From positions 1-64,000 of the forward strand of contig SUTV01000004.1 in the NCBI GenBank assembly GCA_015152515.1: a stretch of 64,000 nt of DNA. Direction: 5' to 3'. Position 1 is the first letter of the stretch. Every line of letters begins with the position of its first letter. A model generated the notes under the pieces. The model had not been told where the DNA came from. It ran no database searches and saw only the letters and a program-made list of their open reading frames with translations. Below, piece after piece: positions 22,408-35,181 of this stretch. This DNA is from Cyanobacteria bacterium SIG29 (GTDB lineage Bacteria > Cyanobacteriota > Vampirovibrionia > Gastranaerophilales > Gastranaerophilaceae). The translations under genes and the position numbers were made by a program.

Positions 22408-22812
22408 ATGCAAATTGCACCAGTTTCATTTGCTGGAAAAAAAGAAATTCAATCTATTGCGAGAAACGCAGGACAATTAAATACAGCACAAAAAGAATTA
22501 GTTAAAAATGCTTGTGCATTTCACGATTTAGAAGTTGATATTACTAGCGACGGCGAATTTTTAGCTGATCCAAAACAAGCAGAAGTAACATCAAGTAAAT
22601 TAATGGATTCACTTGATAAAGCAGGTGCTTCAAAATTCTCATACTTAATTGCTGTTGATGCTTTAAATGCACCAGTTGTAAGAGAAAATGTTTCACCAAT
22701 ATCAAGAAGTGACATTACTGCTAAAGCTCTTGAAATAGCTGAAAAATCAGACGAAGTTACAAAAAAAGATGTTATTTCAAATATAACAAAATTTTATACT
22801 TGGCGTTATTAA
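22408..22812 (+). CDS. Lineage-type small protein with PVSFAG motif
   Basis: The 134-residue protein starts MQIAPVSFAG, a motif shared with other small proteins in this window. The rest is mainly helical with no signal peptide or membrane segment, and I recognise no domain. GGAGG precedes the ATG with strong spacing, suggesting high expression. The bidirectional terminator at its end separates it from the convergent gene. Confidence 0.65.
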   Translation: MQIAPVSFAGKKEIQSIARNAGQLNTAQKELVKNACAFHDLEVDITSDGEFLADPKQAEVTSSKLMDSLDKAGASKFSYLIAVDALNAPVVRENVSPISRSDITAKALEIAEKSDEVTKKDVISNITKFYTWRY

Positions 22813-24345: not shown

Positions 24346-25038
24346 ATGAGCTCAAATTTCAATTTCTTGAAAAAAGTAAATAGCAATTTATATGAAATCA
24401 TCTCTGAAGCAGAAAAACTATACAGAGATGAATATTTTGAACAATGCATGATTCAAACAAGAAGATTTGGCGAACAAATTTGCAAAGAAATGCTTGAACA
24501 AAACAATAAAAAAACAGGCTCTTTTGATGAAATGTTGGCAACTTTAAAAGATAATTCTCACGGTCATGCTCAAGAAAAAGAATTTATTGATGATTTATAC
24601 TTTTTAAAAAAGAATGGAAACCAAAGCGCACATTCTGGCAAAATAAAAAAAGAAGCTATGAATGCACTAGAATGTTTAAAACGCTCTTTTGAAATTGCGA
24701 TTAATTATAGTGTTTATAATCAAGGCGCAAGCACAAATATTTTAAGATTAAATTATGATGTTGAACTTTTAATTACAGATAAAAAATCTAAAAAAAGCTT
24801 AAAAGATAAGTATGAAGAAGCAAAAAAACAAGCTGAAAAAGAAGAAAAACAAGTAAAACAAAAAGAAACTTCAAAACCAAAACAAAATTCAAACAAAACT
24901 TTGAATGCGGAAAAAAGAACAAAAAAAGAAAAACAACCATTAAAAATTCGTTTCTTTTGGAAAATGATTATTTTTCTTTCTTCTATTTCATTAATTGGCG
25001 TAATTGCATTAATTATCGCAATTAATCTTACACGTTAA
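24346..25038 (+). CDS. DUF4145-type protein with C-terminal membrane anchor
   Basis: Residues 10-130 resemble the DUF4145 helical domain (QTRRFGEQICKEMLEQN, FLKKNGNQSAHSG), also found at the N-terminus of some restriction-enzyme subunits and signalling proteins. A long Lys/Glu-rich charged linker follows (residues 150-205). A single C-terminal membrane helix (WKMIIFLSSISLIGVIALII) then anchors it with the domain in the cytoplasm. Function is unknown. It ends by overlapping the convergent rhodanese gene by four bases. Confidence 0.6.
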   Translation: MSSNFNFLKKVNSNLYEIISEAEKLYRDEYFEQCMIQTRRFGEQICKEMLEQNNKKTGSFDEMLATLKDNSHGHAQEKEFIDDLYFLKKNGNQSAHSGKIKKEAMNALECLKRSFEIAINYSVYNQGASTNILRLNYDVELLITDKKSKKSLKDKYEEAKKQAEKEEKQVKQKETSKPKQNSNKTLNAEKRTKKEKQPLKIRFFWKMIIFLSSISLIGVIALIIAINLTR

Positions 25039-25454
25039 TTTTCATCAGCATTTTTATAATCTGTTGTATCATTTTTAACTATATCAAAATCAAATTTTTT
25101 CCATTCTTTAAAACCACCACGAAGAACAACTGTTGGGAAATGATTATCAACAAACTTTAATGCAGAATTATAAGCTCTTGGGCATGAATCAGAATAAGTA
25201 TAAACTACTGTCACTTTTTCTTTATCTAGCATAACGGCATGGTCTTTTACATCTTTATATGGAATATGAATTGCATATGGTATATGACCTTCAATATAAT
25301 CATCATAATCTCTAACATCAACAATTCTAATAGTATCAACCTTATTAGAAATAACTTCATCTAAAGTATATGGACCTATTGTAAATGAAATAATATCTTC
25401 AAAATATTTTTTAGCACGAGATAAATCTTTTGTTGTAATGTGATTAGAAAACAT
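25035..25454 (-). CDS. Rhodanese-like domain protein
   Basis: This single rhodanese domain protein has RIVDVRDYDDYIEGHIPYAIHI, then TVVYTYSDSCPRAYNSALKF, and VVLRGGFKEWKKF. The usual active-site Cys directly after the VVVY strand is not there (VVYTY); a Cys comes four residues later in DSCPRAY. Sulfur-transfer activity is therefore uncertain. I start it at the ATG at 25454, which has AAAGGAG five bases upstream; the track start at 25469 lies before that site. Confidence 0.8.
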   Translation of the reverse strand: MFSNHITTKDLSRAKKYFEDIISFTIGPYTLDEVISNKVDTIRIVDVRDYDDYIEGHIPYAIHIPYKDVKDHAVMLDKEKVTVVYTYSDSCPRAYNSALKFVDNHFPTVVLRGGFKEWKKFDFDIVKNDTTDYKNADEN

Positions 25455-25567
25455 AATAACTCCTTTCATAAAAACAATTTATTACAAAATATAAAAGCTA
25501 TAATTCGCTTATAGAGTAGTTTTCTGAGCTAATTAATATTTTGTTTGTAAAAATATAAATCTTTTAA

Positions 25568-25596
25568 TTGACTTTAGATTAAATAAATCAGATAAT
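25568..25596 (+). promoter_or_regulatory. Promoter of the pyrimidine operon
   Basis: TTGACT (25568-25573) and GATAAT (25591-25596) are separated by exactly 17 bases. Transcription would start near 25603, just before the leader peptide. Confidence 0.7.
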
Positions 25597-25618
25597 ACTA
25601 GAAATAGGAATTAGGGTT

Positions 25619-25657
25619 ATGAAACATTTTTTAATAACAAGTGAATATAGATTTTAA
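25619..25657 (+). CDS. Leader peptide of the pyr operon (12 aa)
   Basis: ATG at 25619 opens a 12-codon frame, MKHFLITSEYRF, behind an AGGA/AGGG-type site and downstream of the promoter. The stop is directly at the base of a terminator-like hairpin before pyrK. A T-rich tract (CATTTTTTAATAAC) falls inside it. This is the layout of transcription-translation attenuators, such as E. coli pyrBI. It is not in the ORF track because it is so short. Confidence 0.5.
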   Translation: MKHFLITSEYRF

Positions 25658-25690
25658 AAAGAGAAAAGCATTCGTGTTTTTCTCTTTTTT
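25656..25690 (+). terminator. Attenuator-like hairpin before pyrK
   Basis: AAAAAGAGAAAA pairs with TTTTTCTCTTTTT around the loop GCATTCGTG, and a T run follows. The stem is mostly A-T, so it would be a partial terminator. It sits between the leader peptide stop and the pyrK ribosome binding site, as expected of an attenuator. Confidence 0.6.
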
Positions 25691-25704
25691 TATAAGGACA
25701 GGAA

Positions 25705-26457
25705 ATGAGCAAAAAGATATACAAAGCAAAAGTTAGCAAAATAGAAAGAGTAAGCAATAGCTCTCACTTTATCGAAATAGAGTGTCAAACACCAGTTACT
25801 GTTGAAGCTGGACAATTTATCTCTATTTATTGTGATGGTTTAACACTAAGAAGACCATTTAGCGTTTATTCAAACAATAATGGAAAAATTGGTGTTTTAT
25901 TCAAAGAAAGAGGAAAAGGAACTCAATATATTAAATCCCTAAAAGTTGGTGATTTTATTGATGTAGCTGGTCCATTTGGAAACACATTTAATATTAAAAA
26001 TAAAAAAGCATTACTTATAGGAGCAGGTATCGGATGTGCTCCTATTTCATATCTAAAAGGTAAACTTAACGAACAAGGAATTGAAAACTTCTTTGCTTGT
26101 GGATTTTTAAATAAAGGTGAAGTCCCAAGTGGAATGAACATAGATATGATATGTACTGATGATGGTTCTTTGGGCGAAAAAGGAAGCGTATTAAATTATA
26201 TTGGAGTTTTAATAAACGAATATAAACCAGAAATTATTTATGCTTGTGGACCTCACATTGTTTTAAAAACTATTGCTCAATTGGGTGAAACTTACGGAGT
26301 TGAAACCCAAGTTGCAATGGAAAAAGTTATGGCTTGCGGAATCGGTGTTTGTAGAGGTTGTGTTATAGACATTAAAAAAGATGGAAAAATTATTAATGCA
26401 ACTGTTTGCAAAGATGGTCCTGTATTTAAAGGCGAGGAGGTTGTATGGGAATCTTAA
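25705..26457 (+). CDS. pyrK: Dihydroorotate dehydrogenase B, electron transfer subunit
   Basis: PyrK passes electrons from PyrD through FAD and a [2Fe-2S] cluster to NAD+. The 250-residue protein has the FAD motif LRRPFSVYS, GAGIGCAPISYL for NAD binding and the cluster motif MACGIGVCRGCV with a last Cys in TVCKDGPVF. It is the first gene of the pyr operon, with AGGACAGGAA before the ATG, and overlaps pyrD by 13 bases. Confidence 0.95.
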   Translation: MSKKIYKAKVSKIERVSNSSHFIEIECQTPVTVEAGQFISIYCDGLTLRRPFSVYSNNNGKIGVLFKERGKGTQYIKSLKVGDFIDVAGPFGNTFNIKNKKALLIGAGIGCAPISYLKGKLNEQGIENFFACGFLNKGEVPSGMNIDMICTDDGSLGEKGSVLNYIGVLINEYKPEIIYACGPHIVLKTIAQLGETYGVETQVAMEKVMACGIGVCRGCVIDIKKDGKIINATVCKDGPVFKGEEVVWES

Positions 26458-27359
26458 ACATTAATCTTAATGGATTAGAACTAAAAAACCCAATTATGAC
26501 AGCTTCTGGCACTTATGGATATGCTAGCGAATACAACGATTTTATTGATGTATCAAAACTTGGTGCTGTTGTTACAAAAGCAATTTCACTTCACCCAAGA
26601 GCTGGCAATAAACACTTAAGAATAACTGAAACAAGAGCAGGCATGATAAATTCAATTGGACTAGAAAATGTTGGTATCGAAAAATTTATCGAAATCAAAT
26701 TACCTGAATTACAAAAAAACAATATTGATTTTGTTATGAATGTTGCTGGTTCTACTTTAGATGAATACATTCAAGTTGCAAAAATTTGTAATGACAACAA
26801 CATAAAAGCAATTGAATTAAATGTTTCTTGCCCTAATGTTAAAGCAGGCTGTTTAGAATTTGGAACTGATGAAAACTCATTATTTGAATTGGTTAGTAAA
26901 GTAAGAGCTGTTTATGATGGCTTTTTAATTGTAAAACTAACTCCAAATGTAACTTCAATTGAAAAATTAGGATTAGCCGCACAAAAAGCAGGAGCAAACG
27001 CAATTAGCGCAATTAACACTTTAAAAGGAACTTCTATAAAAATTGATTTTATTAAAGGTAAATTCCATAAAACAATAGTACAAGGTGGATATTCAGGCAT
27101 TGGTATAAAACCAGTTGCAGTTGGTGCAGTATCAAGATTAGCAAAAGCCATTAACATTCCAATTATTGGTATGGGCGGAATAGAAACATTAGATGATGTA
27201 CTAGAATTTTTTGCAGCAGGGGCAGAAGCGGTTCAAATAGGTACAGCTAATTTCACACACCCAGAAACAGCAGAAAAATTAATAAATGAATTAGAAGAAT
27301 TTATTACAAAGAACGGATTTAAAGACTTAAACGAATTAAAAAGAGAATTGAGGGCATAA
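26445..27359 (+). CDS. pyrD: Dihydroorotate dehydrogenase B, catalytic subunit
   Basis: It oxidises dihydroorotate to orotate with FMN. The class 1B features are the Cys base in ELNVSCPNVK and partnership with PyrK. Other motifs are GTYGYASEYNDF, GMINSIGLENVG, KLTPNV and GMGGIETLDDVLEF. Length is 304 residues, usual for the family. GAGGAGG lies inside the pyrK end, and its stop overlaps the pyrE ATG by one base. Confidence 0.96.
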   Translation: MGILNINLNGLELKNPIMTASGTYGYASEYNDFIDVSKLGAVVTKAISLHPRAGNKHLRITETRAGMINSIGLENVGIEKFIEIKLPELQKNNIDFVMNVAGSTLDEYIQVAKICNDNNIKAIELNVSCPNVKAGCLEFGTDENSLFELVSKVRAVYDGFLIVKLTPNVTSIEKLGLAAQKAGANAISAINTLKGTSIKIDFIKGKFHKTIVQGGYSGIGIKPVAVGAVSRLAKAINIPIIGMGGIETLDDVLEFFAAGAEAVQIGTANFTHPETAEKLINELEEFITKNGFKDLNELKRELRA

Positions 27360-27934
27360 TGACAAACGAAGTATTAAATTTATTAGAAAAAGCGCAAGGC
27401 GTATTGCACGGACACTTCTGTTTAACATCAGGATTACATTCAGATATTTATTTTCAATGTGCAAAACTATATCAATATCCAGAAATCACATCTGAACTTG
27501 GAAAAAGATTAGCAGAGCAATTAGCAGATTTAGAATTTGATACAATCGTGGCTCCAGCTATTGGTGCTGTAATCATTGGTTATGAAACAGCAAAAAATGC
27601 TAAAAAACGAAACCTTTTTGTAGAAAGAAAAGATGGCGAAATGCAATTAAGACGCGGTTATACTCTAAAAAAAGGTGAAAAAGTTGTAATTATTGAAGAT
27701 GTAATAACAACAGCAAGAACAATCAAAGAAACAATGGAAGCAATTAAAGAATTTGAACCTGAAGTTGTAGCTGTTGGTTGTATTGTTGATAGAACAAAAG
27801 GTCAAACACCATACAATATAAAATCATTACTTCAAATTGACCCAGTTGTTTATGAACCAGAAAATTGCCCACTATGCAAAGAAGGCATTGAATTAGTAAA
27901 ACCAGGAAGCAGAACAGAAAAGGCAAAAGTATAA
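27359..27934 (+). CDS. pyrE: Orotate phosphoribosyltransferase
   Basis: It joins orotate to PRPP to give OMP. The 191-residue protein has the PRPP signature VVIIEDVITTARTIKE and FVERKDGEMQLRRGY, with substrate Lys/Arg residues. TAATG overlaps join it to pyrD upstream and pyrB downstream, so it is translated in chain. Confidence 0.95.
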   Translation: MTNEVLNLLEKAQGVLHGHFCLTSGLHSDIYFQCAKLYQYPEITSELGKRLAEQLADLEFDTIVAPAIGAVIIGYETAKNAKKRNLFVERKDGEMQLRRGYTLKKGEKVVIIEDVITTARTIKETMEAIKEFEPEVVAVGCIVDRTKGQTPYNIKSLLQIDPVVYEPENCPLCKEGIELVKPGSRTEKAKV

Positions 27935-28842
27935 TGAAACACCTTATTGATATTGAAAATATTTCCAAAGAAGACATTTTAAATATCGTAAATCTTGCAA
28001 AAGAATTTAAAAATAAAACAAAAAAATCTGATGTTATAGGAAAAACAATAGCATTAATGTTTTATGAAAATTCAACAAGAACTCGTTGTAGTTTTGAAAT
28101 AGCTGGTCAAAATTTAGGAATGAACATCATTAATTTTGACGCAAATTCATCTTCTCTATCTAAAGGTGAAAGCTTAAAAGATACAATTGAAAACTTATAT
28201 TTTTTAGGCGTGAATGCTGTTGTAATCAGACATAATTTATCAGGCATAATCAATAATGTAATGAGATTAGTTAAATACCCAATCCACTTTATAAATGGTG
28301 GCGATGGCACACACGCACACCCATCTCAAGCATTGTTAGATTTTTACACAATGCTTGAAAAAATTGGAAGTGTTGAAGGTAAAAAAATAACAATAGTTGG
28401 AGATGTTACACATTCTAGAGTTGCAAAATCAAATATCAGGTTATTATCAAAATTTGGTGCTGATATTCACATTTGCGCACCTAGTTACTTACAACTTGAA
28501 AATACTCAAGCTTTTGATGTTACTTATCACGACAATGTAAAAGAAGCAATAAAAGACTCAAATGTTGTAATGGTTTTGAGAGTTCAAAATGAACGTCACG
28601 AAAAAGAAGGTTATCCTGATTCTTCAGAATACAAACGATTATATGAAATTGATACAAAATCACTAAAACAATATGCCTCAAAAGATGTTATCTTAATGCA
28701 TCCTGGACCAGCAAATAGAAATATAGAAGTATCATCAGAATTATTAGATAACCAACTAGGAAAAACCATACTTGAACAAGCGCAAAATGGCGTGTTTGTA
28801 AGAATGGCAATACTAAACACCTTGTTAAAAGGAGGAAACTAA
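27934..28842 (+). CDS. pyrB: Aspartate carbamoyltransferase catalytic subunit
   Basis: It condenses carbamoyl phosphate with aspartate. The carbamoyl-phosphate loop FYENSTRTRCSFE and HPSQALLDFYT are intact, as is MHPGPANRN. At 302 residues it is a standard catalytic chain. No pyrI regulatory subunit gene is present, so it is probably an unregulated trimer or a complex with dihydroorotase (pyrC is next). It overlaps both neighbours by one base. Confidence 0.96.
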   Translation: MKHLIDIENISKEDILNIVNLAKEFKNKTKKSDVIGKTIALMFYENSTRTRCSFEIAGQNLGMNIINFDANSSSLSKGESLKDTIENLYFLGVNAVVIRHNLSGIINNVMRLVKYPIHFINGGDGTHAHPSQALLDFYTMLEKIGSVEGKKITIVGDVTHSRVAKSNIRLLSKFGADIHICAPSYLQLENTQAFDVTYHDNVKEAIKDSNVVMVLRVQNERHEKEGYPDSSEYKRLYEIDTKSLKQYASKDVILMHPGPANRNIEVSSELLDNQLGKTILEQAQNGVFVRMAILNTLLKGGN

Positions 28843-30116
28843 TGCTTCTTAAAAATGCAAAAATCGTAAACCCTAAAACAAATTTTGAAGATATAGCAGA
28901 TATCAAAATTGAAAATGATACAATTACTAAAATAGAAAAAAATATTAACGCTCAACCTAATGAAGAAGTAATTGATTTAACAGGTAAAATTATTACTGCT
29001 GGATTAATTGATATGCATTGCCATTTGAGAGAACCTGGGTTTTGCACAAAAGAAACCATTAAAACAGGTATCGCATCTGCTATAAATGGTGGTTATACTG
29101 CAATTTGTCCTATGGCAAACACAAATCCACAAGTTGATAATGTTACTACACTAACCTACACAATTAATAGGGCAAAAGAAGAAAGCGAAATAGGCTTTCA
29201 TCCAATATGTGCAGTAACAAAAGGATTAGGAAACGAAAAATTAGTTAATGTATCTGAACTATTAGATAATGGTGCTATTGCTTTCTCTGATGATGGAAAA
29301 CCAGTTGAAAACATGCACCTTTTGAGCCAAGCGATTAAATATGTTAATTCACACAATTCAATTATAATTTCACACTCTGAAGATTCTTCTTTAGCAAATG
29401 ATGGTGTTATAAATGAAGGCAAAGTTTCAACAAGATTAGGATTAAAAGGTATTCCAAATATCACAGAATCACTAGCTGTTGCTAGAGAGCTTGAAGTTGT
29501 TAGACACACAAATGGCAAATACCACTTTGCACATATCTCAACAAAACGTTCAATTGAATTAATTAGACAAGCAAAAAAAGATGGGCTACAAGTAACAGCT
29601 GAAACAGCACCACACTACTTCAGTTTAACTGAAGATGATATGGTTGATTATGACGCAAAATATAAGGTAAACCCACCATTAAGAACAAAAGAAGATTTAG
29701 AAGCCGTTATACTTGGGTTGCAAGATGGCACACTTGATGTTATAGCAACAGACCACGCACCGCATACAGTAGCAGAAAAACAAATGCCAATTCAAAATGC
29801 GCCAATGGGTATTGCAGGATTTGAAACTGCACTAGGTATAACTCTAACTTATCTTGTTCACAAAGGTAAACTTACTTTAATGGAAGCACTTAGAAAACTA
29901 AATGCAAATCCAGCCAATATTTTGAATTTAAAAGAACAAGGTTCTATTGAAATAGGCAAAAAAGCAAATATGACTGTAATTGATTTAGATAAAGAATGGA
30001 CAGTTGATGCATCAAACTTTAAATCAAAATGCAGAATATCACCTTTTGATAAACAACAATTAAAAGGTAAAGCAATAATGACAATAATAAATGGAAAAAT
30101 AATTAATATAGGATAA
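28842..30116 (+). CDS. pyrC: Dihydroorotase (class I)
   Basis: It closes carbamoyl aspartate to dihydroorotate. The metal-binding HxH motif is in DMHCHLREPG. Later metal and catalytic residues are in SHSEDSSLA and ATDHAPHTVAEK. The length of 424 residues is that of class I enzymes, which often associate with the adjacent aspartate carbamoyltransferase. GGAGG precedes the ATG inside pyrB. Confidence 0.95.
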   Translation: MLLKNAKIVNPKTNFEDIADIKIENDTITKIEKNINAQPNEEVIDLTGKIITAGLIDMHCHLREPGFCTKETIKTGIASAINGGYTAICPMANTNPQVDNVTTLTYTINRAKEESEIGFHPICAVTKGLGNEKLVNVSELLDNGAIAFSDDGKPVENMHLLSQAIKYVNSHNSIIISHSEDSSLANDGVINEGKVSTRLGLKGIPNITESLAVARELEVVRHTNGKYHFAHISTKRSIELIRQAKKDGLQVTAETAPHYFSLTEDDMVDYDAKYKVNPPLRTKEDLEAVILGLQDGTLDVIATDHAPHTVAEKQMPIQNAPMGIAGFETALGITLTYLVHKGKLTLMEALRKLNANPANILNLKEQGSIEIGKKANMTVIDLDKEWTVDASNFKSKCRISPFDKQQLKGKAIMTIINGKIINIG

Positions 30117-30122
30117 ATAAAA

Positions 30123-31952
30123 ATGCAAATTAAACCCGAAATTAAAGAAAAAATAGTTTTAGCGCTTGATGTTGATACGCCAGAGCAAGCTAAAGAACTA
30201 ATAACCGAACTAAAAGATTATGTTGGTGTTTTTAAAGTTGGCTTGCAAATGTACACAGGCAACGGCTACGAAATTTTTAAATTTATGAAAGAACAAAACA
30301 TCAAATTTTTCTTTGATGTAAAGCTTCACGACATTCCAAACACAGTTGCAAAAGCTTCTGAAAATATTATTAGGAATGGAGCATCTTTCTTCAACATTCA
30401 TACAATGGGTGGTGAAGAAATGATGAGACAATCACAAGAAGCTGCAAGAAAAGTAGCACAAGAATTAGGTAGAGAAAACCCAACAATTTTAGGGGTAACT
30501 GTTCTTACAAGTATTGGCGAAGACTGTTTACAAAATGAACTTAAAGTTCCATACAAACCAAGCGAATACGCCATAAATTTAGCTCTAAGCGCAAAAAAAG
30601 CAGGGTTAGATGGTGTTGTAGCTAGCGTATGGGAAGCAAAAACAATCAAACAAGTTTGCGGAAAAGATTTTAAAGTACTTTGCCCAGGAATAAGACCAGA
30701 TTGGTCAAACAAAAATGACCAAAAAAGATTGGCGACACCAAGCGTAGCAATAAAAGAAGGTGCAGACTTTTTAGTTATCGGCAGAGCAGTTACTAGCGCT
30801 CCAGATAGACTAAAAGCTATCCAAATGATTTACGAAGAAATTGAAAACGCTATGCTTACTCAAAATAAATCTTACGCTGTTTCTAAAGGTAAATTAATTT
30901 TAGAAAATGGTATGATTTTTGAAGGCGAATCAGTTGGTGCTGATGGCACTTCTTTTGGGGAAATAGTATTTAATACTTCAATGGTTGGTTATCAAGAACT
31001 TTTGACTGACCCAACTTGCGCAGGTCAAACAATCGTTTTAACATATCCAGAAATTGGTAACTACGGTATAAATAAAGACGACTTTGAAAGTGGACGAGTT
31101 CACGCAAAAGGTTTAATTATTAAAAACTTATGCGAAAACGAATCACATTATAAAAGCAATGTTTCATTAGGTGACTATTTAAAACAAAACAACATTGTTG
31201 GTTTAAAAGGAATTGATACAAGACATTTAACCCAAATTATTAGAAATAATGGAACAATGAATTGTGCTATAACAACTGGAGATGTAACACCTGAATTAAA
31301 AGCACAAATTAGAAATTTTAAAATAGATAAAGATATTACTCAACAAGTTTCATCCTATAAAGTTGAAAGAATTATAGGAAACGGAGCGAAATTAGCAATT
31401 ATAGATTTAGGATTAAAGAAAAGTATTTTTGAAAGTTTTAAGGAACTTAATTGCGATATAACAATGTTTCCTGCAGATACAAAAGCAGAAGATATTTTAA
31501 ATGAAAATTTTGACGCTGTTTTAGTATCAAATGGACCATCTAATCCGATGGATGCAACAGTTACAATCGAAACCGTTAAAAATTTATTAGGAAAAATAAA
31601 ACTATTCGGTATTGGTTTAGGTCACCAAATTATAGCAATAGCACTTGGTGCCAAAATTTCTAAATTGCCATACGGACATAGAGGTTCTAACCACCCAATT
31701 ATTAATACACAAACAAAAGAAATCCTTGTTTGCGCACAAAACCACAGCTACATTGTTGATGAAACTTCACTTCCAATTGGTGTTGAAGCAAACTATATAA
31801 ACATCAATGATAATAGTATCGAAGGTTTAATTTGTGAAAAATATGACATTAAGACAGTTCAATTCCACCCAGAACTTAACACAGGAATTTATTCACAATG
31901 GATTGATGAAATTGAACAAAATAAAAAGAAAGAGATAAGCTATGCCAATTAA
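30123..31952 (+). CDS. Fused OMP decarboxylase and carbamoyl-phosphate synthase small subunit, glutaminase Cys missing
   Basis: Residues 1-240 are PyrF (LALDVDTPEQAK, FFDVKLHDIPNTV with catalytic Lys/Asp, PGIRPDW, IGRAVT), the last step to UMP. Residues 255-609 are CarA, the glutamine amidotransferase part of carbamoyl-phosphate synthase (LENGMIFEGESVG, VSNGPSNPMD). The frame is continuous. The nucleophile elbow reads FGIGLGHQ instead of GICLGHQ: codon 31614-31616 is GGT (Gly498), where Cys is needed. The triad His582 and Glu584 remain (FHPE). It therefore probably cannot hydrolyse glutamine, and the CarB partner would use free ammonia. It overlaps carB by 11 bases. Confidence 0.93.
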   Translation: MQIKPEIKEKIVLALDVDTPEQAKELITELKDYVGVFKVGLQMYTGNGYEIFKFMKEQNIKFFFDVKLHDIPNTVAKASENIIRNGASFFNIHTMGGEEMMRQSQEAARKVAQELGRENPTILGVTVLTSIGEDCLQNELKVPYKPSEYAINLALSAKKAGLDGVVASVWEAKTIKQVCGKDFKVLCPGIRPDWSNKNDQKRLATPSVAIKEGADFLVIGRAVTSAPDRLKAIQMIYEEIENAMLTQNKSYAVSKGKLILENGMIFEGESVGADGTSFGEIVFNTSMVGYQELLTDPTCAGQTIVLTYPEIGNYGINKDDFESGRVHAKGLIIKNLCENESHYKSNVSLGDYLKQNNIVGLKGIDTRHLTQIIRNNGTMNCAITTGDVTPELKAQIRNFKIDKDITQQVSSYKVERIIGNGAKLAIIDLGLKKSIFESFKELNCDITMFPADTKAEDILNENFDAVLVSNGPSNPMDATVTIETVKNLLGKIKLFGIGLGHQIIAIALGAKISKLPYGHRGSNHPIINTQTKEILVCAQNHSYIVDETSLPIGVEANYININDNSIEGLICEKYDIKTVQFHPELNTGIYSQWIDEIEQNKKKEISYAN

Positions 31953-34900
31953 TACAAACATTAAAAAAGTTCTTGTAATCGGTTCTGGTCCTATTGTTAT
32001 TGGACAAGCAGCAGAATTTGACTATGCAGGTGTTCAAGCTTGTAGAGCTTTAAAAGAAGAAAATCTTGAAGTTATTTTGGTAAACTCAAATCCAGCAACC
32101 ATTATGACAGATGAAAATATTGCAGATAAAATCTACATTGAACCTTTAACTGTTGAATCTTTAACCCACATAATAGAAAAAGAAAGACCTGATGGAGTTA
32201 TTGCAACATTAGGAGGTCAAACAGGGTTAAATCTAGCAGTTAGCCTATATGAAGCAGGTGTTTTAGAAAAATATAATGTTGAATTATTAGGCACAAAAAT
32301 AGACTCTATTAAAAAAGCAGAAGATAGAGAATTATTTAGAAACTTGATGCTTGAAATTGGTGAACCAATTCCAGAAAGCGATATTGTATCAAGCTTTGAA
32401 GAAGCACAAAAATTTGCGCAAAAGATAGGTTTTCCTATCATTGTAAGACCTGCATACACACTTGGTGGTACTGGTGGCGGTATAGCAAACAACTACAATG
32501 AATACGAAGATATTGTTCACACTGGTTTATCGCTAAGCCCAATTTCTCAAGTTTTAGTAGAAAAAAGTATTGCTGGTTATAAAGAAATTGAATATGAAGT
32601 AATTCGAGATGCGAACAATACAAGCATTGCTATTTGTAATATGGAAAATATCGACCCAATCGGTATTCATACAGGCGACAGCTTTGTAGTTGCACCAACA
32701 CAAACTCTTACAAGAAAAGAATGTCATATGATGAGAAGCTCTGCTTTAAAAATCATACAAGCATTAAAAATTGAAGGTGGATGTAACGTACAATTTGCTT
32801 TAGATACAGTTAGCAACCAATATTATGTAATTGAGGTAAACCCAAGAGTTAGCCGTTCCTCTGCTTTAGCTTCTAAAGCAACTGGTTACCCTATTGCAAA
32901 AATTACAACAAAAATTGCAATCGGCTACCACTTACATGAAATCAAAAACTCTATTACTAAGAAAACAGTTGCAGCAGTTGAACCAACAATTGACTATGTT
33001 GTAACAAAAATACCTAAATGGCCGTTTGATAAATTCAAACACGGCGATAGAATTTTAGGTACAAAAATGAAAGCTACAGGCGAAGTTATGGCAATTGGCA
33101 GAACTTTTGAAAGCTCATTCAAAAAAGCCGTAACTTCAATTGAATCAAAACACACAGGTATTTTAAGAGGAAGACATTTAGAATGTAGTGAAGAAGAACT
33201 AAAAGCATTACTTCACGTTCAAGATGATAGAAGAATTTTTAGAGTAGCTGAAGCCATCAATAGAGGTATAAGCGTAGATGAAATCAACAAAATTACTAAG
33301 ATTGATAAATGGTTTATCTATAAAATTAAAAATCTAGTTGATTTTGAAAATAAACTAAAAAATAACGATTTAACACCTGCAATTTATTTAGAAGCAAAAG
33401 AAAAAGGATTTTTAGATGAAGAAATTGCGAAACTTTCTCAAGTAACAATTTCTGAAATAGAAAAAATAAAGAAAACTAATTCAATAAGTGCTTCATTCAA
33501 AATTGTAGATACTTGTGCAGCTGAATTTAAAGCATACACACCATACTACTATTCAACATATAACGAAGTTGATGAAACAGATTCAAATGACAACTCTAAA
33601 AAAGTTTTAATTTTAGGTTCTGGTCCAATCAGAATTGGTCAAGGTATTGAATTTGACTATTGTTCTGTTCACGCAGCTTGGGAAGTTAGAAACCATAACT
33701 ACAAATCTTTAATAGTAAATTCTAACCCGGAAACACTATCAACAGATTTTGACGTAGCTGATAAATTATTCTTTGAACCAATGCACATTGAAAATATAAT
33801 GAACATTATTGAAAAAGAAAAGCCAGAAGGTGTTATGGTCCAATTTGGAGGACAAACAGCAATCAACCTAGCACCAAAATTAGAAGAAAAAGGAATTAAA
33901 ATTCTAGGTACTTCTCTTGAATCTATTAATATTGCAGAAGATAGAAAACTATTTGAACAACTATTGAGAGACTTAAATATTCCACAACCAAAAGGTTTTG
34001 CCGTAAGAAAACAATCTGAAGCATTAGAAGTTGCAAAAACTTTAGGCTACCCATTACTTGTAAGACCATCTTATGTAATCGGTGGACGTGGTATGCAAGT
34101 TGTTTATAACAAAGATGAATTAATCTCTTATATAGAAAGCGCACTAAAATTCTCTGACGAACACCCTATCTTAATCGACCAATATATAGAAGGTACAGAG
34201 TTAGAACTTGACGCTATTTCAGATGGTGAAAATGTATTAATTCCAGCAATTACAGAACACGTTGAAAGAGCAGGTATTCACTCAGGCGATTCTATTGCTC
34301 TTTACCCAACAAGAACAATTCCTCAAAATGTTATTGATAACTTAGTTGAATATACTAAAAAAATTGCAAAAGCCTTAAAAGTAAAAGGGTTAATGAATAT
34401 CCAATTTGTTTTAAAAGACAATATTGCTTATATTATCGAAGTTAATCCAAGAGCTTCAAGAACTGTTCCTATTTTAAGTAAAGTTACTGGTACCCCAATG
34501 GTAAAAATCGCCATTGACGCTATTATGGGTAAATCAATTATTGAACAAGGCTATAAAACAGGATTAATTGAGACAACAAACCTCGTTTGTGCAAAAGTGC
34601 CAATTTTCTCATTCCAAAAATTAAACAGAATTGACCCAGCCCTAGCTCCAGAAATGAAATCAACCGGCGAAGTTCTTGGTATCGATACAACATATGAAAA
34701 AGCTTTAGCAAAAGGTTTCTTGGCTGCAGGTTATAAACTTTCAACAGAAAGAGGAAATGTTCTAATATCAATTAACGACCACTACAAAAAAGACTCTGTT
34801 GAAATAGCAAAAACTCTTGTTGATTTAGGCTACAACCTAATTGCAACAACAGGTACACACAAGTTCTTAAAATTAAATAATATTGAATCTAAAGAAATTG

Positions 34901-35181
34901 AAAAATTCGATATTAAAAAAATCCAAAAAAATATGAAAAATAAAGAACTTTGCTTTATCATCAATACGCCAACAACAAATAATAATAATTCTGTAAGATA
35001 TGGTTCAGAAGATAGAGGCTTCTTAATTAGAACAATCGCTGAAATGTATTCTACACCTTGCTTCACAGTATTAGATACAGCAAAAGCATACCTAGAAGCA
35101 TTACAATGTTATATGAAAGATTCTAATCTAACTTATGACAGCATTGATAAATACAGAAACGCACAATTAACTTGCAAATAA
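31942..35181 (+). CDS. carB: Carbamoyl-phosphate synthase large subunit
   Basis: CarB makes carbamoyl phosphate from bicarbonate, two ATP and ammonia. The 1079-residue protein has the two homologous halves, each beginning with a Rossmann start (VIGSGPIVIGQAAEFDYAG; ILGSGPIRIGQGIEFDYCS) and containing an ATP-grasp domain (RPAYTLGGTGGG; RPSYVIGGRGMQ). A C-terminal allosteric domain follows. It looks complete. Its partner small subunit lacks the glutaminase Cys, which makes direct ammonia use likely. It is the last enzyme gene of the pyr operon. Confidence 0.97.
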   Translation: MPINTNIKKVLVIGSGPIVIGQAAEFDYAGVQACRALKEENLEVILVNSNPATIMTDENIADKIYIEPLTVESLTHIIEKERPDGVIATLGGQTGLNLAVSLYEAGVLEKYNVELLGTKIDSIKKAEDRELFRNLMLEIGEPIPESDIVSSFEEAQKFAQKIGFPIIVRPAYTLGGTGGGIANNYNEYEDIVHTGLSLSPISQVLVEKSIAGYKEIEYEVIRDANNTSIAICNMENIDPIGIHTGDSFVVAPTQTLTRKECHMMRSSALKIIQALKIEGGCNVQFALDTVSNQYYVIEVNPRVSRSSALASKATGYPIAKITTKIAIGYHLHEIKNSITKKTVAAVEPTIDYVVTKIPKWPFDKFKHGDRILGTKMKATGEVMAIGRTFESSFKKAVTSIESKHTGILRGRHLECSEEELKALLHVQDDRRIFRVAEAINRGISVDEINKITKIDKWFIYKIKNLVDFENKLKNNDLTPAIYLEAKEKGFLDEEIAKLSQVTISEIEKIKKTNSISASFKIVDTCAAEFKAYTPYYYSTYNEVDETDSNDNSKKVLILGSGPIRIGQGIEFDYCSVHAAWEVRNHNYKSLIVNSNPETLSTDFDVADKLFFEPMHIENIMNIIEKEKPEGVMVQFGGQTAINLAPKLEEKGIKILGTSLESINIAEDRKLFEQLLRDLNIPQPKGFAVRKQSEALEVAKTLGYPLLVRPSYVIGGRGMQVVYNKDELISYIESALKFSDEHPILIDQYIEGTELELDAISDGENVLIPAITEHVERAGIHSGDSIALYPTRTIPQNVIDNLVEYTKKIAKALKVKGLMNIQFVLKDNIAYIIEVNPRASRTVPILSKVTGTPMVKIAIDAIMGKSIIEQGYKTGLIETTNLVCAKVPIFSFQKLNRIDPALAPEMKSTGEVLGIDTTYEKALAKGFLAAGYKLSTERGNVLISINDHYKKDSVEIAKTLVDLGYNLIATTGTHKFLKLNNIESKEIEKFDIKKIQKNMKNKELCFIINTPTTNNNNSVRYGSEDRGFLIRTIAEMYSTPCFTVLDTAKAYLEALQCYMKDSNLTYDSIDKYRNAQLTCK

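Follow-up and report, generated by a model that had tools for sequence, protein, structure and literature searches.

The window analysed here is a stretch of 64,000 nucleotides from Cyanobacteria bacterium SIG29 (contig SUTV01000004.1), a member of Candidatus Gastranaerophilales, an order assigned by NCBI to the Cyanobacteriota/Melainabacteria group. On its forward strand lies the complete seven-gene pyrimidine operon which the first-pass annotation had recognised, and profile matches agree with that assignment. The first gene, pyrK (25705–26457), has the dihydroorotate dehydrogenase electron transfer subunit as its best match, at a score below the curated cut-off, and is named with the help of the operon context. 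All other genes scored over their cut-offs, namely pyrD (26445–27359, NF005574), pyrE (27359–27934, TIGR01367), pyrB (27934–28842, TIGR00670), pyrC (28842–30116, TIGR00857), a pyrF-carA fusion (30123–31952, NF001273 and TIGR01368) and carB (31942–35181, TIGR01369). A rhodanese-like gene adjoins the operon; it is divergent in the genus (25035–25469 in the window) and has the same orientation as pyrK in family f7 (L151:8514–8906).

Upstream of pyrK and on the same strand a sigma-70-like promoter site (25568–25596) was found, consisting of TTGACT (25568–25573), a spacer of 17 nt and GATAAT (25591–25596), just as first annotated, though by itself the match does not exceed chance (2 sites as compared to 6.7 expected from shuffles). 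The annotated leader with a Shine-Dalgarno sequence of its own was also confirmed. The conserved AGGA (25606–25609) is located 9 nt before the ATG at 25619 of a reading frame of 12 codons, MKHFLITSEYRF, which closes with a TAA ending at 25657; an AGGG at 25613–25616 was rejected as the Shine-Dalgarno sequence because it is too near to the ATG. An intrinsic terminator (25656–25691) begins at the leader stop codon, as had been claimed, and proved to be not partial but a complete hairpin with a UUCG loop, as indicated by folding and by compensatory changes. Its purine-rich 5′ arm (25656–25670) and pyrimidine-rich 3′ arm (25675–25689) pair fully over 15 bp, including one G-U pair, and are followed by UU. 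The hairpin has a folding energy of −15 kcal/mol versus −4.6 kcal/mol for shuffled sequences (z = −4.9; 0 of 200 shuffles equally stable) and carries the signal, the fold of the entire leader region being unremarkable (z −1.6). A simple terminator scan of the window did not pick up this hairpin, possibly since the U-tract becomes part of the A-U-rich stem. From the end of the T run at 25691 there are 13 nt to the start of pyrK. As the closest upstream gene (25035–25469) is divergent from pyrK, the hairpin is not the terminator of that gene.

A comparison of the pyrK upstream region across related genomes had been proposed in the first-pass annotation and was carried out with the pyrK orthologs of the genus and of further genera within the family and the order. 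It showed leader frame and hairpin to be conserved across the order. The layout precedes a pyrK-first operon in 19 genera from three families, and in nearly all relatives a promoter-like site and an ATG are followed by a stop codon at the base of the hairpin, with pyrK coming after the U-tract. The leaders of family f7 (G233, G228) and family f6 (G232) read MKTYFKDTYKIFI and MNYLILKFNILS, with the stop codon at the hairpin base in both. A strict rule was then defined, which demands an ATG, 7–22 codons, and a stop codon at −12 to +10 relative to the hairpin base. A leader of this kind was present at 80 of the 96 pyrK loci, with 10.6 predicted from shuffled upstream sequence; since the relatives share ancestry these species counts are not independent, and the 19 genera are the better unit. 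The same rule was satisfied by 7 of 87 other terminators drawn from about 624 kb of genome stretches, and by 1 of 33 in the subset with intergenic upstream sequence. Further leaders were recognised under relaxed rules. Inspection of the 16 loci failing the strict rule revealed GTG starts, stop codons 16–21 nt inside the hairpin, run-through frames, and misassigned or over-trimmed hairpins. No hairpin was obtained at G026, G020, G038 (contig end) and G061 (imperfect stem); G072 fell under the T threshold in one scan, yet the layout is visible there on inspection. A promoter-like site (at least 9/12) is located upstream of the leader in 71 of the 80 loci, and a Shine-Dalgarno-like motif occurs in 70.

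The distance from the ATG to the hairpin is narrow (median 37, quartiles 36–40 nt), which might fit the need of a timing device. The gap between hairpin and pyrK, 13 nt in the window, goes down to 9–20 nt in many relatives, and the leader frame runs through the hairpin in only a few. Double changes which preserve pairing were found in eight of the nine consensus pairs of the hairpin; the changes are mostly from A-U to G-C, and purines remain on the 5′ side. Repeat arrays (GAAGCGAAGCGAATGA...GAGCAAAATTTAAGACG) are located between hairpin and pyrK in some members of the genus (L016, L019, L029, L031, L032, and L034), where they lengthen the gap to about 160–380 nt.

As judged from these sequences the act of translating the leader is conserved and the sequence of the peptide is not. 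The two other frames contain stop codons in 79 and 71 of the 80 leaders, and a shuffled leader stays open with a mean probability of 0.25. Differences within the genus are equal over codon positions 1, 2 and 3 (0.31/0.28/0.30). An open frame in combination with equal change at all codon positions indicates that translation up to the hairpin is kept and the peptide is not. No regulatory codon run conserved across species was found among the 80 leaders, the longest run of the same residue being 1–2 in 78 of them, and in a search for an antiterminator the 5′ arm had no excess pairing to the leader (mean z −0.02, 16 genera). Both results make amino-acid sensing and an antiterminator less likely. 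Lysine and phenylalanine are enriched in the leaders 1.4 and 1.9 fold over the shuffled expectation, and KIEY is common within the genus. The occurrence of KIEY(I) had prompted the idea of an arrest peptide, which was rejected as the motif is missing from other genera and there is no codon-position bias.

Several other explanations of the layout have to be weighed. That a short reading frame and a hairpin met by chance, or that the hairpin is the terminator of the upstream gene, was refuted by the conservation tests and retains hardly any probability: AT-rich DNA readily gives short reading frames and the promoter match does not exceed chance, but strict leaders were observed at 80 loci instead of 10.6, and the nearest upstream frame is divergent at 58 of these 80 loci, the window among them. 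The leader could also be a very small gene in its own right which ends at its own terminator; the operon would then be transcribed through constitutive readthrough or from another place. Ordinary genes of the order often have terminators near their stop codons, as such a gene would, but the frame is kept and the peptide is not, the few nucleotides between hairpin and pyrK offer little room for a promoter, the frame passes through the hairpin in some relatives, and the leader always precedes the pyr operon, all of which makes a gene of this kind very unlikely. Control of the PyrR or riboswitch type through an unrecognised RNA element is disfavoured and is regarded as highly improbable. A precedent would be provided by sister families of the same class: PyrR scored over the cut-off in eight genomes of families f9 and f12, and an RNA resembling the PyrR site (RF00515) is located directly before pyrB at L166, L168, L186 and L189 in PyrR-encoding genomes of these families, with scores which stay below the gathering threshold (38–43.5 versus 54 bits). 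However, PyrR did not reach the curated cut-off in any of 58 relatives, nor in G072 and G049, in a search which put 6 of 14 controls over the cut-off. Rfam gave no match in the window or in the loci of the order, where RF00515 in particular was absent at the gathering score, in agreement with the remark in the first-pass annotation that no PyrR binding loop was recognised. Moreover, only about 55 nt separate the likely transcription start from the hairpin, and the terminator is the sole conserved structure.

Most simply, Gastranaerophilales would rely on a leader-peptide attenuator in place of the PyrR of their sister families. With leader frame and hairpin conserved across the order, PyrR and its RNA site absent, and little room for a promoter before pyrK, an attenuator of this type is well supported, and on sequence grounds the leader region of the pyr operon can with high confidence be regarded as a leader-peptide transcription attenuator. 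Such an attenuator might sense a cue other than UTP, for example the rate of translation, an amino acid, or a ligand causing ribosome stalling on the nascent peptide. The excess of lysine and phenylalanine and the frequent KIEY of the genus would fit a cue of this kind, but codon runs and an alternative hairpin are missing, the peptide differs between genera without codon-position bias, and the genes under control make pyrimidines, so that a cue other than UTP appears unlikely.

A leader-peptide attenuator which senses UTP by a kinetic race, as proposed below, is considered the probable mechanism. The hairpin 3′ arm has a pyrimidine content of 0.90 and a U content of 0.72, and its longest pyrimidine run measures 14 nt (genus means); the respective values for ordinary terminators from this order are 0.67, 0.50 and 8.8 nt (Mann-Whitney test on genus means, p about 1e-9). 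Beyond the purine arm the polymerase thus encounters a run of pyrimidines, and it does so just where the 5′ arm would be covered by a ribosome standing at the stop codon. The pyrimidine-rich 3′ arm could stem from another cause, and the U content is 0.35 in the leader and on average 0.39 from the ATG to the tail, lower than the 0.49 of pyrL (PMC10135430). In pyrL low UTP makes the polymerase pause, and the ribosome is then able to block the hairpin (PMC10135430). When a stop codon was moved to 5 bp before a terminator in E. coli, termination fell from about 90% to less than 10% in a translation-dependent manner (PMC4824070). It is from the sequence of the 3′ arm, the pyr gene content and these E. 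coli precedents that we infer UTP to be the signal.

In the proposed mechanism transcription would start about 15–20 nt before the 12-codon leader, and the 5′ arm of the terminator would begin at the leader stop codon. At plentiful UTP the polymerase would be through leader, 3′ arm and tail too early for a ribosome to have loaded and translated the leader, so that the hairpin would form and end transcription. If UTP, and possibly also CTP, is scarce the polymerase would stall in the leader or in the 3′ arm; a ribosome which has arrived at the leader stop codon would then cover the purine-rich 5′ arm with its footprint, no hairpin could form, and the operon would be read. The pyr genes are thus probably switched on only when UTP is low. 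The sequence supports a conserved translated frame which stops at the base of the hairpin, a conserved terminator, and the lack of an antiterminator, of PyrR and of any sign of amino-acid sensing; UTP-dependent readthrough and the kinetic race are the parts of the model which we infer. More tentatively, the terminator itself might be the nucleotide sensor. Its pyrimidine-rich 3′ arm and tail would then be under selection and be crossed fast only at plentiful UTP (and CTP), in a race against the ribosome with the 12-codon leader as timer. Gastranaerophilales would employ this arrangement in the absence of PyrR, and it would work in cells where the polymerase normally outruns the ribosome.

Whether polymerase and ribosome are coupled in these bacteria bears on such a race. 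In 22 of 75 ordinary gene-end terminators of the order the first G-C pair is located at most 12 nt from the stop codon (in the window, e.g., at 22812, 35811, and 37210). Terminators close to stop codons have been read as a sign of runaway, uncoupled transcription in other bacteria (PMC7858274), and this may possibly hold for Gastranaerophilales as well. So many ordinary terminators near stop codons argue against tight coupling as the default, which should not be assumed. Uncoupled transcription is compatible with the model, termination then being the default and a slow polymerase the exception.

The first-pass annotation had likened the region to UTP-sensing attenuation at pyrBI of E. coli. 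This stood as far as the sequence tests indicate that translation matters, the peptide is irrelevant and no antiterminator exists, and the UTP signal would be a further likeness. Common to the pyrK leader and pyrL of E. coli and Salmonella are a translated leader and an intrinsic terminator before pyrimidine genes, and a U-rich transcript at which the polymerase would pause at low UTP may be shared as well. The analogy does not extend to the architecture. pyrL has about 44 codons versus 12 here and runs through the hairpin, whereas the present leader usually stops at its base (−12 to +10 at 80 loci) and is therefore not classed as a member of the pyrBI family. In addition, the pyrimidine run here forms part of the terminator itself, in its 3′ arm and tail, the leader would control the whole UMP operon, and the phylum is a different one; homology is not claimed. 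PyrR attenuation, known from Bacillus (RF00515) and present in the sister families, also employs a terminator before the genes to attenuate pyr operons, but in Gastranaerophilales neither the protein nor the binding-site RNA was found over the cut-offs. With attenuators of the trp and his type the pyrK leader shares a short reading frame upstream of a terminator, but not the regulatory codon runs or the competing antiterminator hairpin. The tR2 reporter (PMC4824070) likewise has its stop codon a few nucleotides from the hairpin and requires translation for the block, in a synthetic long gene in E. coli as compared to a natural leader of 12 codons here.

No earlier report of such a pyrK leader was found in the open-access literature searched, most subscription journals being outside this coverage. 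If true, the model would mean that ribosome-coupled attenuation in response to UTP also exists in a non-photosynthetic lineage which is sister to the cyanobacteria, and a single class would harbour two systems of pyr attenuation, one with PyrR and its RNA and one with a leader peptide. For a gut lineage which is largely uncultured, it would also provide a natural test of the distance between ribosome and polymerase; as a genetic switch it would be very small, with about 90 transcribed bases.

Some further observations concern pyrimidine metabolism in the order. The uracil salvage gene upp was examined and had no obvious leader of the pyrK type. Of 117 genomes sampled from the order, 84 lack a match to the window PyrB, many of these being 99% complete, which suggests that de novo pyrimidine synthesis has been lost in many genera. 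pyrF and carA form one frame of about 610–630 amino acids throughout the genus, but families f6 and f7 have them as two separate genes. CarA of the window has GIGLGHQ in place of the canonical GICLGHQ with the catalytic cysteine, and in the nearest relative of the window genome (G003, L200) GIGMGHQ and HPD for HPE are found. The cysteine is kept in 28 other members of the genus, and CarA without it may possibly mean that the carbamoyl-phosphate synthase of one small clade depends on ammonia.
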